The notes below the pieces were generated by a model. The model ran no database searches, had not been told where the DNA came from, and worked only from the letters and a program-made list of their open reading frames with translations. Source: Candidatus Falkowbacteria bacterium CG1_02_41_21 (GTDB lineage: Bacteria; Patescibacteriota; Patescibacteriia; Patescibacteriales; UBA12465). Taken from it: a stretch of DNA of 11,980 nucleotides. The stretch's first letter is position 1; each line of letters starts with the position of its first letter. The position numbers and the translations under genes are program-made. Shown here piece by piece: positions 9,659 to 11,980 of the stretch. The stretch spans positions 1 to 11,980 of the forward strand of contig MNUV01000050.1 in the NCBI GenBank assembly GCA_001871235.1, in the 5' to 3' direction.

Positions 9659-10663
9659 TTACTGCTCTGGAAAATTAATCCAATAATTATTTACCAATTC
9701 TCGTTTAAGATTACTGGCATCACCATGTTTTAACATTCCCAGATAAGAAGCTAGGCTCGCCGGCTTTGGACTATTTTTTATTTTGGTCATCATTCTCCTT
9801 TTAGTTTTAGTTCGCAGAACCTTATGCTCGGAAAAATTTACCCAACCCAAAAAATCAACCTCGCGCTCTATGGTTTTTAAATAAATTTTTCGCGGGTGAA
9901 TTTGCAGTTTTAATTTATCATTTAAAAATCTGTCTATTTTTGCCAAAATACCCAGCAACTCATCTCTGTCGGCCGACAGAAAGACGAAATCATCGGCATA
10001 ACGAATATAATATTTGGCTTTGACTTGATGTTTTACATATTGATCAAAAGAGTTCATATAAATATTAACCAACAATTGCGAGGTCAAATTACCGAGCGGC
10101 AAACCACGGCCGGGAGCGGACTCATAACTGCTAATAATATTATTTAATAAAGACAAAATTTTCTCATCCGCAATATATTCCCGCAGAATTTCTGATAAAA
10201 TTTGATGATTAATATTATCAAAAAACTTCCTAATATCACATTGTAAAATCCAACAAGTTTTAGTATGGTTATGGCTAACCCGCCCCATCATTTTATTAAA
10301 CGCCATAATTGCCCGATGAGTGCCTTTGTCTAAACGACAAGAATAGGAATGAGCGATAAAAATTCTATCAAAGAATGGATATAATTGGCGATAAATGGCA
10401 TGATGAGCCAAGCGATCGCGAACCGATGCTTTATGAATATGGCGCAATTTTGGATCAGAGATATAAAAATCTTGATAAGGTCCATGGCGGTAAGCATCAT
10501 TGGCAAGTTCGCTATTAAGCTGTAAGATGTTATCAGCCAAGGAGAGGGAAAATTCAATGACATCTTTTTTCTTGGTCTTATCCACAATAAACTCTTGCCA
10601 GGCCACTAATAAATTTCCGGTCGCAATAATATCTAAATAATTAATATTTAATTTTTTCTTCAT
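9659..10663 (-). CDS. DGR reverse transcriptase
   Basis: Encodes 334 residues with the RT motifs in order: SVRDRLAHHAIYRQLYPFFD (80-99), WILQCDIRKFFDNI (138-151, catalytic D143), GLPLGNLTSQLLVNIYMN (187-204), YIRYADDFVFL (219-229, catalytic D224 and D225) and VDFLGW (269-274). The SQ pair at 195-196 in motif 4 is the mark of DGR reverse transcriptases; group II intron RTs have SP there. No maturase or endonuclease domain is attached. It would copy TR RNA into mutated cDNA. I chose ATG 10663; a TTG at 10711 would add 16 residues that read through a run of G. Eight Gs lie 18-25 bases upstream, and a five-codon frame (ATG 10678) stops overlapping the start codon. The 3' end runs into a shared terminator. 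The catalytic residues are intact. Confidence 0.95.
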   Translation of the reverse strand: MKKKLNINYLDIIATGNLLVAWQEFIVDKTKKKDVIEFSLSLADNILQLNSELANDAYRHGPYQDFYISDPKLRHIHKASVRDRLAHHAIYRQLYPFFDRIFIAHSYSCRLDKGTHRAIMAFNKMMGRVSHNHTKTCWILQCDIRKFFDNINHQILSEILREYIADEKILSLLNNIISSYESAPGRGLPLGNLTSQLLVNIYMNSFDQYVKHQVKAKYYIRYADDFVFLSADRDELLGILAKIDRFLNDKLKLQIHPRKIYLKTIEREVDFLGWVNFSEHKVLRTKTKRRMMTKIKNSPKPASLASYLGMLKHGDASNLKRELVNNYWINFPEQ

Positions 10664-10680
10664 AAATATATAGCCATAAA

Positions 10681-10688
10681 CCCCCCCC
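10681..10688. repeat. C8 homopolymer between divergent RT and avd starts
   Basis: Eight consecutive Cs (eight Gs on the minus strand) lie in the 42-base gap between the RT ATG and the proposed avd start. Such runs are prone to slippage. The run is in the 5' leader of RT and just before the first recognisable avd codons, so a length change could alter translation of either gene. Confidence 0.7.
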
Positions 10689-10705
10689 TTGGAAACTTTT
10701 CCATT

Positions 10706-11023
10706 TTGCAAAAACTAACCGAAACTTATCTTCTCTGGCATGGCTTTTCGCTGCAATTGCCCCGCTTAGTGCGCTATAATTTGGGGATTAAAATTGATAA
10801 TCTATTTACGGAAATACTGGAAATAATTCTGACGGCTAAATATGCCGCCAAAGAAAATAAACTGTCTTTTATTGATAAGGCCGCCATCAAATTGGACTCA
10901 TTAAAATTTTTTCTACAAATTCTCTGGCAAACCAAATCTCTGGAAAATAAAAAATATTTGCAACTATCGGAAGCGCTTAATGAAATTGGGAAAATAATCG
11001 GCGGTTGGAAAAAATTATTCTAA
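10706..11023 (+). CDS. avd: Avd-like four-helix-bundle DGR accessory protein
   Basis: Encodes about 105 residues, nearly all predicted helix, with the Avd pattern of four helices: KLTETYLLWHGFSLQLP, RLVRYNLGIKIDNLFTEILE, KAAIKLDSLKFFLQILWQ and LQLSEALNEIGKIIGGWKK. The RYNLGxKI block and the GKIIGGW ending are typical. The protein is basic (10 K in the last half), fitting nucleic-acid binding. Avd forms a barrel-shaped pentamer that binds the RT and template RNA in Bordetella phage BPP-1. The start is uncertain: there is no ATG near, so TTG 10706 is proposed. The frame stays open upstream to 10652, and related proteins often have a few residues before KL. It is divergent from RT and antisense to the TR transcript, unlike the usual same-strand order. 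Its stop overlaps the TR terminator. Confidence 0.85.
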   Translation: MQKLTETYLLWHGFSLQLPRLVRYNLGIKIDNLFTEILEIILTAKYAAKENKLSFIDKAAIKLDSLKFFLQILWQTKSLENKKYLQLSEALNEIGKIIGGWKKLF

Positions 11024-11047
11024 AAAACCCGCCTCACTTGAAGCGGG
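11022..11047 (-). terminator. Terminator-like hairpin 3' of the template repeat
   Basis: Read on the minus strand, CCCGCTTC-AAGT-GAGGCGGG (11047-11028) forms an 8-bp stem with one U-G pair, followed by six Ts (11027-11022). It begins 14 bases after the TR ends and would give the TR RNA a defined 3' end, before the RT gene. On the plus strand the same bases lack a T tract, so it does not serve avd. It may also be the structured spacer that DGR RNAs carry after TR. Confidence 0.75.
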
Positions 11048-11061
11048 AAAACAAATTACTA

Positions 11062-11195
11062 GCGGACACCGAGGAAACGACAACGGGCAGTCCAATCATT
11101 GTCAAAGTAGTTGAGGTTGAGCTTGCGATCGTTGTCATTGACATCAAGATAAGGAACCTGACGATTGTCATTGGAATTGCGCCAAACGGAGCCAA
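11062..11195 (-). repeat. DGR template repeat (TR)
   Basis: This 134-bp non-coding copy is 118/134 identical, without gaps, to 11557-11690. On the minus strand it reads as if coding W-R-N-S-N-D-N-R-Q-V-P-Y-L-D-V-N-D-N-D-R-K-L-N-L-N and on to FLGVR and a TAG stop. It is rich in AAT/AAC codons (about 28 adenines), which are the sites that mutate. It lies between the target gene and avd, and its 5' edge (TTGGCTCCG, 11195) matches the VR edge. Differences lie in an interior zone; both ends are identical. Confidence 0.95.
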
Positions 11196-11202
11196 CAAAA
11201 AT

Positions 11203-11322
11203 CGCTTTCAGCCATCAGGAGCACCGCCCCTTCAATACTGTCGGGGTTGAATTTTATTCGGGATATTTAAATCCACCAGCTGAAAGCGCCAAGTATTCTA
11301 TTTTTTGAAAACAACACTTGGC
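11203..11322 (-). ncRNA. Inverted-repeat-rich segment directly upstream of the TR (possible DGR RNA 5' domain)
   Basis: On the minus strand two inverted repeats meet end to end. GCCAAGT/ACTTGGC (11322-11316 with 11294-11288) encloses 21 bases. CGCTTTCAGC/GCTGAAAGCG (11288-11279 with 11212-11203) is a perfect 10-bp pair enclosing 66 bases, seven bases before the TR. The 66-base loop holds GGAT/ATCC and a choice between CCCC/GGGG and TTCAA/TTGAA pairings. This looks like folded RNA forming the 5' part of the TR transcript; no promoter is evident, so transcription is inferred. Confidence 0.5.
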
Positions 11323-11450
11323 ACACTAATTAACTGGATTCAATTAATCATTCCGACCAAAATATTATTTTAGAATTCGGCCGCTTGAAGCCATAACCGC
11401 AAGCAGTGTCGCCTACTATCCACCAGTTATCTTAACATATTTTTGGGAAT
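11323..11450. other. Gene-free spacer between TR upstream element and VR terminator
   Basis: With neighbouring elements this lies in a gap of about 355 bases between TR and VR that holds no credible gene. It is AT-rich, with TAAAAT and AATATT boxes on the minus strand but no -35/-10 pair at proper spacing. CTGGTGGAT recurs at 11420-11428 and 11270-11278 as a direct repeat, meaning unknown. A promoter for TR RNA should be here if the RNA is made separately from the target mRNA. Confidence 0.4.
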
Positions 11451-11480
11451 AAAAAAATCCCGCTTCATTGCTGAAACGGG
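11451..11480 (-). terminator. Intrinsic terminator 3' of the DGR target gene
   Basis: On the minus strand CCCGTTTCA-GCAA-TGAAGCGGG (11480-11459) is a 9-bp stem with one U-G pair, capped by a GNRA-type tetraloop, followed by ATTTTTTT. It closely resembles the hairpin after the TR (shared TTTTCCCG start, TTCA, CGGG). It is 70 bases past the target stop codon. It may also act as the target hairpin that aids retrohoming in BPP-1, though here it is much farther from the VR. Confidence 0.85.
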
Positions 11481-11550
11481 AAAATGTATTTTTAAGAGCC
11501 AAGAGCTCAAGGGTTCAAGTGCCAGAGCAAAGCGTCCAAGTGGCAAAGAG
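11481..11550 (-). other. 3' flank of the target gene containing a copy of the VR edge
   Basis: These 70 bases separate the target stop codon from its terminator; the TR has no counterpart. GAGCCAAGAGC at 11496-11506 repeats exactly the 11 bases that span the 5' edge of the VR (11684-11694). CACTTG occurs twice and AGAGC four times. It may be a remnant of earlier recombination; no gene is seen. Confidence 0.4.
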
Positions 11551-11980
11551 CTACTTGCGGACACCGAGGAAACGACAACAGGCCCACCAATCATCGCCAA
11601 AGTAGCTGAGGTCGAGCTCGCGATCGTCGTCATTGACATCAAGATAAGGAACCTGACGAAAGCCAATGAAAGTGCGCCAAACGGAGCCAAGAGCGATAAT
11701 AGGGAATTGTTTTTGGAGTTCTGGGTGAGTGGCGCCAAGAGCTAATAGTTCCATTAAAGTGGCGGGGCGGCAACCATCACTATCCATTTTCTTGATAGCG
11801 TTTTCACTACCGATGTTACGATCAAAATGAAATAGCCTGCCGGAGATATCAACTTTTTTTCCAATCATTTCCGGAGAAATGGGGAAATTTTTGGCGGTAA
11901 CATCGCTGTTTTTCCAATCATAGTTGCCGTCAGCGATAGCTTGTTCCACGGTTTTGGTGTAATCAACGGTGAGCTTAACG
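11551..11980 (-). CDS. DGR target protein with C-type-lectin-like variable C-terminus (5' end outside window)
   Basis: The frame is open from the window edge (VKLTVDYTKTVEQ..., from 11979) to TAG 11551-11553; at least 142 residues are visible, and an internal GTG at 11949 is not needed as a start. The conserved part includes DGCRPATLMELLALG and QFPIIALGSVWR, followed by the variable region and the constant end CRFLGVRK. This layout matches DGR targets of the C-lectin/formylglycine-enzyme-like fold, which display variable residues on a binding surface. Residues set by the VR include T, F, I, G, F near the start, then D, E, D, S, G, D and W, C near the end. The visible part shows no signal or membrane anchor, so location and ligand are unknown. 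RT, TR and target share a strand. Confidence 0.88.
   Translation of the reverse strand, partial: VKLTVDYTKTVEQAIADGNYDWKNSDVTAKNFPISPEMIGKKVDISGRLFHFDRNIGSENAIKKMDSDGCRPATLMELLALGATHPELQKQFPIIALGSVWRTFIGFRQVPYLDVNDDDRELDLSYFGDDWWACCRFLGVRK
11557..11690 (-). repeat. DGR variable repeat (VR)
   Basis: This is the mutated copy of the TR, forming the last codons of the target gene. Sixteen of 134 positions differ from the TR; twelve are at TR adenines (A to G 7, A to T 4, A to C 1) and four are not. Every A-site change alters the amino acid. The last 23 bases in gene direction (GTTGTCGTTTCC... to CCGC) are identical to TR, as expected of the homing-initiation region. Confidence 0.95.

Follow-up and report, generated by a model that had tools for sequence, protein, structure and literature searches.

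A Patescibacteria diversity-generating retroelement with three adenine-diversified targets and a candidate stand-alone structured template RNA

Introduction

Does the reverse transcriptase (RT) gene near the end of a small Patescibacteria contig belong to a working diversity-generating retroelement (DGR), and how would such an element mark the two ends of its template? To our knowledge, most of what is known of DGR biochemistry comes from a single phage element. The template RNA of phage BPP-1 comes from an avd-TR-brt operon (TR, template repeat) with a 3' spacer (PMC12875486). Here we analyze contig MNUV01000050.1 of Candidatus Falkowbacteria bacterium CG1_02_41_21, hereafter the window, which is a complete contig of 11,980 b (G000:C41) within a 635,779-b genome that is 85.6% complete. 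A previous sequence-only reading described a complete DGR, active or recently active, with divergence between TR and the variable repeat (VR) of a putative binding protein concentrated at adenines. We put at about 0.78 the probability that the window carries a recently active chromosomal DGR of the Patescibacteria type, in which one TR, separately transcribed, diversifies three lectin-like targets. At the level of sequence, we show its components, three adenine-diversified VRs, an antisense avd, a covarying leader, and a hairpin with T tract behind TR. The sequence-only reading was right about the DGR and overlooked two further targets, the antisense avd and the putative structured template-RNA gene.

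One template repeat and three adenine-diversified targets

Inspection of the minus strand reveals gap-free repeats, TR (11195-11062) and VR (11690-11557), with 16 differences in 134 positions, 12 of them at TR adenines. This reproduces the alignment reported earlier, and the repeat extends to 139 nt (TR 11195-11057, VR1 11690-11552), with 17 differences and the same 12 at A. A genome-wide DNA search with TR returned four places, namely TR itself, VR1, and VRs at C2:788-926 and C9:7215-7353, the former with 17 differences from TR (15 at A) and the latter with 20 (16 at A). The mismatch at TR adenines expected of a DGR is therefore present in three VRs, where the hypergeometric P for concentration at A is 3.9e-6 for VR1 (30 A in 139) and 3.4e-10 and 1.2e-9 for the C2 and C9 VRs. 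A chance repeat was rejected on these values. The 12 adenine changes of VR1 are non-synonymous without exception, as had been stated, and the same holds for 43/43 changes over the three VRs. The 30 TR adenines occupy first (10) and second (20) codon positions, none the third, and 23 of them are altered in at least one VR.

Related loci display the same bias. We scanned 82 loci, comprising 80 kept of 350 RT relatives, the window, and L118, and obtained a TR/VR pair from 67, sought on the RT strand with at least 55% A and chosen as the best pair by A count. Pooled over the 67 pairs, 1146 of 1256 differences lie at A, a figure raised by this selection. The closest named relative by RT, a Candidatus Falkowbacteria metagenome-assembled genome (MAG; L033, 86% identical), carries an orthologous cassette with 23/25 TR/VR differences at TR adenines. 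As for the 15 loci lacking such a pair, 12 start 900 nt or less from RT, at L053 the TR lies on the strand opposite to RT, and L068 and L095 come with complete context. One non-A difference near the repeat 3' end (window 11061, VR 11556) is common to all four VRs compared (window, C2, C9, and L033); the VR base is A, and the TR base is T in the window genome and C in L033. This site resembles the difference between the initiation of mutagenic homing elements IMH and IMH* of BPP-1.

VR1 lies at the 3' end of the target gene (11551..11979, minus strand), which loses its N-terminus at the contig end, 11980. The description of the DGR as complete accordingly stands for RT, the Avd-like protein, TR, and VR, which lie together, and not for this gene. 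The C2 and C9 targets are complete (189 and 186 aa), each VR occupying the 3' end of an open gene, and targets here measure 186-192 aa and lack an ATPase. Over 97 scaffold and 45 VR residues, the window target has 0 differences from database protein P0009 (192 aa). A model based on the C9 paralogue gives the target a C-terminal domain that resembles C-type lectins, and this predicted fold is consistent with the binding protein that had been proposed. No structural match among those listed for the model is labelled a DGR target, a sequence search of the target against PDB gave no match, and Pfam domains are absent from the 53-member target family except for one weak SHOCT-like match in 1/53. 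The targets have 85 database relatives, 51 of which were aligned with two of the genome's own genes. A terminator-like hairpin followed by a T tract (11458..11481, minus strand; hairpin scan) stands behind the target gene. Two distant target paralogues, G000:C56:3119-3562 (L114) and C32:6184-6609 (L115), are 36 and 32% identical and gave no match to the window TR in the genome search. By eye, both have signal-peptide-like N-termini, and the target family therefore includes apparently exported members.

Reverse transcriptase and an antisense avd gene

The SQ motif is a signature of DGR RTs. The window RT (9659..10711, minus strand) carries it (GLPLGNLTSQ) together with YADD, as the sequence-only reading had recognized, and is a DGR-type RT; its open reading frame (ORF) begins with TTG at 10711, an ATG at ~10663 being the likelier start (334 aa). 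Profile matches to Pfam RVT_1 (E 1.2e-28) and PHROG reverse transcriptase (E 1.2e-98) agree, and the best PDB sequence match is 8ub7_A, labelled 'Reverse transcriptase' (E 3.6e-39), which we take to be the BPP-1 complex. SQ is also named as a DGR signature in DiGReF 2012 (PMC3521204).

The avd-like gene (10706..11023, plus strand; start codon uncertain) occupies the interval between TR and RT; both of these and the target run antisense to it. Its product, noted earlier as Avd-like, exceeds the cut-off for Pfam bAvd (E 2.2e-12) and matches PHROG Avd (E 6.2e-13); it scores 61.7 bits with NCBIfam Avd, under the 80-bit cut-off, and sequence search at E 0.01 found no solved relative. The RT and avd frames are both open. 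Read along the minus strand, the order is target with VR1, terminator-like hairpin, leader, TR, and hairpin with T tract, followed by avd on the plus strand and RT on the minus strand.

This arrangement recurs across the scanned loci. The avd gene is antisense to RT in 76/82, shares the RT strand at a single locus (L053), and is undetected in five, four of which start within 150 nt of RT, the exception being L095. With a fixed search interval, avd was located between TR and RT in 64/67 TR-bearing loci; L087, L090, and L098 fell outside through the extent of the stop-to-stop frame. Viral contigs L142-L144 (RT 54, 46, and 44% identical) have an antisense avd too, and avd lies on the RT strand in phages BalMu-1, ACA1, and VP58.5 and in viral contigs L146 and L147. 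At L053 (Doudnabacteria), RT is inverted relative to target, TR, and avd, with leader and TR still adjacent. In the window, the avd and RT starts stand back to back within less than 60 bp containing a C run (10661-10711), possibly a divergent promoter region common to the two genes.

A covarying leader adjoins the template repeat

Comparison across loci upstream of TR revealed a conserved chain of motifs. In the window these belong to a structured 5' leader of 227 nt (11196..11422, minus strand) that runs from the predicted start site at ~11422 to TR. The leader core (11199..11306, minus strand) matches our covariance model R1 with 82.2 bits and includes helix P1 (11289-11278 / 11213-11202). 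R1 was trained on 30 leaders, every second of 59, with the window (WIN), L033, L118, L108, L054, L102, L111, and L055 set aside; the alignment that fixed the leader boundaries had included all 67 leaders, held-out ones too. The model contains 23 pairs, 19 with compensatory changes. Over the training leaders, 95.7% of cells are paired versus 74.7% after shuffling, and double-change cells number 183 versus 51, with 0/500 shuffles as high and slid structures far lower. An initial Alifold run on the untrimmed 67-leader alignment had given few helices, and trimming improved the result.

Outside the training set, R1 was searched against 78 sources, which partly duplicate contigs (L014/L033, L015/L046, L016/L082), and gave 57 matches at E <=1 in 56 of them. 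Among held-out loci with a known TR, the match adjoins TR in 36/37, the window at E 4.6e-16; at the sole miss, L118, the best unfiltered match is 18.0 bits and sits at the right place. The distance from core end to TR start is roughly 0-15 nt in the aligned loci, where TR starts were set by BLAST. These comparisons show a covarying element, predicted to be structured, that adjoins TR. The leader reaches ~118 nt beyond the core, and its full length covaries as well. Alignment A3 (34 of 43 leaders of 205-245 nt, drawn from 53 with an accepted -10 box) holds 49 pairs, 43 with compensatory changes, with 94.9% of cells paired versus 68.8% shuffled and 471 versus 132 double-change cells.

Several side observations concern the leader. 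A3 columns 22-43 and 77-109 form tandem hairpins with a common loop motif like GGTTACGGCTT, lost from the second hairpin in the window; this suggests a duplicated module. The more distant antisense-avd DGRs L143 and L144 have a GGTTACGGCT-like stretch upstream of TR and no R1 match there; the stretch is perhaps part of a sister RNA. A second, weaker R1 match (39 bits) at L052:12845-12992 (minus strand) lies far from TR and may mark a second DGR on the same contig.

Promoter-like and terminator-like sequences and pairing across the template

Upstream of the leader, a box scan across loci identified an extended -10 promoter-like box, TGTTAAGAT (11429..11437, minus strand). This box falls in the -155..-125 bin in 37/65 loci, in the overlapping next bin in 13, and in other bins in 0-5. 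On the other side of TR, the hairpin scan found an intrinsic-terminator-like hairpin (11047-11028) with T tract (together 11022..11047, minus strand), in the window CCCGCTTCAAGTGAGGCGGG-TTTTTT. A hairpin with T tract follows on the TR strand in 56/67 loci, with a median start 10 nt after TR, compared to 3/67 on the opposite strand and a background of 4.8%. The fold of the RNA predicted for the window (401 nt) is more stable than that of shuffled versions (100 shuffles, z -3.3). We infer that TR would form a free-standing RNA gene of ~400 nt with its own promoter at ~11422 and its end at ~11022.

The nucleotides that directly follow TR are complementary to an A-rich stretch preceding the leader core. 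In the window, this predicted helix, P0, would pair a 5' strand at 11293..11304 (minus strand; 11304-11297 and 11295-11293) with a 3' strand at 11048..11059 (minus strand; 11055-11048, plus 11059-11057 inside the TR end), both hand-counted. Over 65 loci, leaving aside L118 and L055, a wide test (24 x 32 nt) gave -7.78 for own partners versus -5.88 for permuted ones (z -7.5, 0/5000), and a narrow test, its stretch chosen afterwards, gave -6.20 versus -4.27 (z -9.5, 0/5000). Two reversed and four displaced controls ranged from z -2.7 to +0.4. In the narrow test the own partner is better than the mean of the others in 53/65 loci, and the window pairing of 8 + 3 base pairs reaches -4.9 versus a mean of -2.6 with other loci (rank 3, where 0 is best). 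Across loci, P0 is a tendency rather than a rule.

Distribution and genomic setting

Across 380 genomes of the class, some of which also supplied training loci (L128 is apparently L051, and L132 is L107), the leader occurs in 113 (E 0.001), RT in 142 (E 1e-40), and both in 104 (Fisher P 2e-49). The window genome has a single R1 match. At least 93 of 149 leader matches have an RT within 2 kb among the matches listed, in every case on the same strand and 485-577 nt downstream (5-95%); for the remaining 56, the matches listed include no RT within that distance. In nine genomes there is a leader and no RT match at E 1e-40. Leader match G013:C19:3871-3977 (L134) has no RT, and a 451-aa ORF begins at the expected TR place, perhaps a decayed cassette. 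At G033:C21 (L120, L135), a leader and a target-like gene lie at a contig end in a genome with no RT at E 1e-30.

The 80 kept RT loci come mostly from Patescibacteria MAGs, and the cassette is confirmed as a genuine DGR of a very small Patescibacteria cell, an already known kind of element. S15-like and NYN genes flank it in the window and likewise in L033 (S15 assigned by eye), and an ORF fragment at the contig start (3-206) appears transposase-like by eye. Four RT loci, L034, L046, L056, and L057, stand under MAGs titled Bacilli, Planctomycetota, Spirochaetia, and Zetaproteobacteria, with leaders in L034, L046, and L057. The title of L046 seems wrong, as the locus is apparently G020:C1 from a genome of the window's family; misbinning or transfer seems to account for the other three. 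A second DGR RT lies near ftsW/mraY-like genes (by eye) as a contig-edge fragment, G000:C22:9-497 (L113), whose match reads through one TGA. Its counterpart in G004:C46 (L117) has an RT match with TAG, and that in G005:C3 (L118) has its own TR with 23/23 differences at A. Together, the three sequences seem to represent a second DGR locus ancestral to the genus and partly decaying.

How the template RNA may define its ends

Taken together, the features around TR can be read as the parts of one RNA. TR would be transcribed from its own promoter at ~11422 and end at ~11022, giving a template RNA of ~400 nt. Helix P1 would stand just 5' of TR, and P0 would tie the leader to the sequence that immediately follows TR; with P1 before TR and P0 across it, the fold would therefore mark both template ends. 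The most likely site of action of RT and Avd would be the 5' leader, in the role that the 3' spacer has in BPP-1, and complementary DNA (cDNA) synthesis would start near the P0/TR junction. The mutagenized cDNA would then replace the VRs in trans at three loci. We give even odds to the general form of this proposal, in which the template RNA of Patescibacteria DGRs is a stand-alone molecule resembling telomerase RNA, whose conserved 5' leader recruits RT and Avd and whose P1 and P0 fix the end and the start of the cDNA.

Several results weigh against this proposal. L118, L143, and L144 have no R1 match at the working threshold, and A3 omits nine of the 43 full leaders that were eligible, chosen by judgement without a fixed rule. 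For P0, the composition-matched control is not zero (z -2.7, 19/5000), the own partner is best in 10/65 loci in the narrow test (median rank 9) and in 5/65 in the wide test (median rank 13), and the wide-test duplex of the window, at -5.0, is weaker than the permuted mean of -5.9. The strict hairpin test failed in 11/67 loci, including the nearest relative, L033. The extended -10 box is in its main bin in 37/65 loci only, and scanning 10600-11980 for generic promoters yielded 1 site versus 2.9 in shuffled sequence, the TGTTAAGAT box not being listed. The start, end, and independence of the template RNA are predictions, and the leader is a candidate platform for RT and Avd whose binding is putative.

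The strongest alternative is an ordinary DGR, in which the leader merely replaces the 3' end of avd that lies upstream of TR in BPP-1, stopping reverse transcription, and priming is BPP-1-like. P1, just 5' of TR, could indeed stop reverse transcription likewise. However, BPP-1 also has a TR-brt spacer of 144 nt that recruits bRT-Avd and primes, whereas here a median of 10 nt separates TR from the hairpin, antisense avd adjoins, and little room is left on the TR strand before the hairpin for such a 3' spacer. We regard this alternative as unlikely.

A slightly smaller chance attaches to the leader being a cis-regulatory sensor or attenuator that sets the amount of template RNA. Structured 5' leaders are often regulatory, and P0 ends beside the terminator-like hairpin, where alternative pairing could control termination. 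A switch would, however, be expected upstream of a coding gene, and what follows here is TR. The core also ends close to the TR start and P0 spans TR, which favors template definition.

Recent diversification of the targets

The sequence-only reading had proposed present or recent activity and a comparison of reads or related genomes for VR variation. Target protein pairs, compared over scaffold and 45 VR residues (the 16 closest pairs were listed), come near to that comparison. P0071/P0076 differ at 1/122 scaffold and 16/45 VR positions, C2/P0008 at 2/144 and 15/45, P0008/P0011 at 2/144 and 16/45, and P0004/P0005 at 3/147 and 17/45. Because near-identical scaffolds bear very different VRs, diversification appears recent; pairs with 1-3 scaffold and 15-17 VR differences are the sequence trace expected of recent mutagenic homing. 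Assembly chimeras are possible, as several of the compared proteins sit on short contigs.

Could the cassette be a relic, formerly active and now silent in this lineage? VR1 itself gives some reason to ask, with 5/17 of its differences off A and a specificity for A that ranks fourth from the bottom among the 67 TR/VR pairs. Since 4/16 differences in the shorter alignment are off A and the rank is low, either VR1 is an older copy or TR has drifted. The second RT of the genome reads through a stop, and four pairs with identical scaffolds have few VR differences (C2/P0011 1, C9/P0001 2, C41/P0009 0, C41/P0006 1). The opposite pattern also occurs, with P0004/P0006, P0006/P0009, and C41/P0004 differing at 8-10 scaffold and 0-1 VR positions. 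In contrast, the open RT and avd frames, the four close pairs with divergent VRs, and adenine changes that alter the protein in 43/43 cases speak for recent activity, and we consider a relic improbable. Gene duplication and drift without a DGR can be dismissed almost entirely, since, even though duplicated 3' ends occur and the hairpin after TR resembles that after the target gene, in each of the three VRs the differences cluster at adenines of a single repeat copy and the repeats sit beside RT and Avd.

Comparison with known systems

Among described DGRs, the closest group is DGR clade 2 of Roux et al. 2021 (PMC8144416), an RT clade described there as confined to Patescibacteria, cellular, and adenine-biased, with targets typically lacking recognized domains. 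The cassette likewise has a Patescibacteria RT, is cellular and adenine-biased, and has targets without a recognized domain; by host taxonomy and RT relatives rather than placement in the published tree, it is probably a clade 2 member. In the main text of that paper, as available to us, 'avd' has 0 occurrences and no template-RNA structure is mentioned. A C-type-lectin-like target is also described in bacteria of the candidate phyla radiation (CPR) (PMC10907252), there with an AAA ATPase, which the targets here lack.

The cassette shares with BPP-1 an RT, an Avd, a TR, a VR near the target 3' end, and adenine mutagenesis (NC_005357; PMC12875486, PMC3240598). The layout differs. BPP-1 carries target mtd, avd, TR, a 144-nt spacer (by annotation), and brt on one strand, with avd abutting TR (NC_005357), and the spacer that follows TR there serves both to recruit bRT-Avd and to prime (PMC12875486); a hairpin or cruciform lies downstream of VR in BPP-1-type DGRs (PMC3240598). 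The order here is instead target, promoter-like box, leader, TR, hairpin, antisense avd, and RT. R1 reached a non-significant 7.8 bits in BPP-1 and no more than 12.3 bits in five phage DGR records, and it matched 1/14 viral contigs. Unusual orders are on record, since RT mRNA and template RNA need not share a transcript (DiGReF 2012, PMC3521204) and a 2019 survey distinguished 122 cassette patterns by the order and orientation of TR, VR, and RT (PMC6642488). As far as their available text goes, those patterns cover TR, VR, and RT only, whereas here avd is inverted across the lineage and TR comes with a promoter-like box, a leader, and a terminator-like hairpin of its own.

The nearest described RNA is Rfam RT-16 (RF03019), which matches the 126 nt directly upstream of TR (11196-11321, including the AUAAAAU-CA stretch) with 45.6 bits (E 7.2e-6), under the curated 50-bit gathering threshold. 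At E 1, RT-16 is found in 6/39 family genomes; apart from that of the window, the matches in G033 (37.5 bits) and G021 (24.9) lie on leaders found by R1. It passes the cut-off in 0/39 family genomes, and it matched none of 16 family loci at E 0.5 and none of ten loci that R1 scores at 106-110 bits. A search of 40 genomes gave no match, which is no proof of absence because the controls were silent as well. RT-16 as the whole identity of the leader was rejected on the sub-threshold window score and the 0/39 count. It is probably a sub-branch of the leader RNA, which is a candidate RNA family that Rfam covers weakly.

The literature searched, as far as its text was available and with relevant papers possibly missed, yielded no account of the leader, of P0, or of an avd in antisense orientation. 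The kind of cassette is known, and the template-RNA architecture is, as far as shown, new unless described in work outside that literature. The R1 search model finds templates independently of RT and offers Rfam a candidate family, and the defined RNA of ~400 nt is a test object for how a DGR RT chooses template ends and primer. A cellular lineage, with the leader in 113/380 class genomes, seems to rely on a compact RNA that is transcribed separately and carries a structured 5' leader. If this holds, the 3'-spacer arrangement of BPP-1 would be one of at least two designs for a DGR template RNA.

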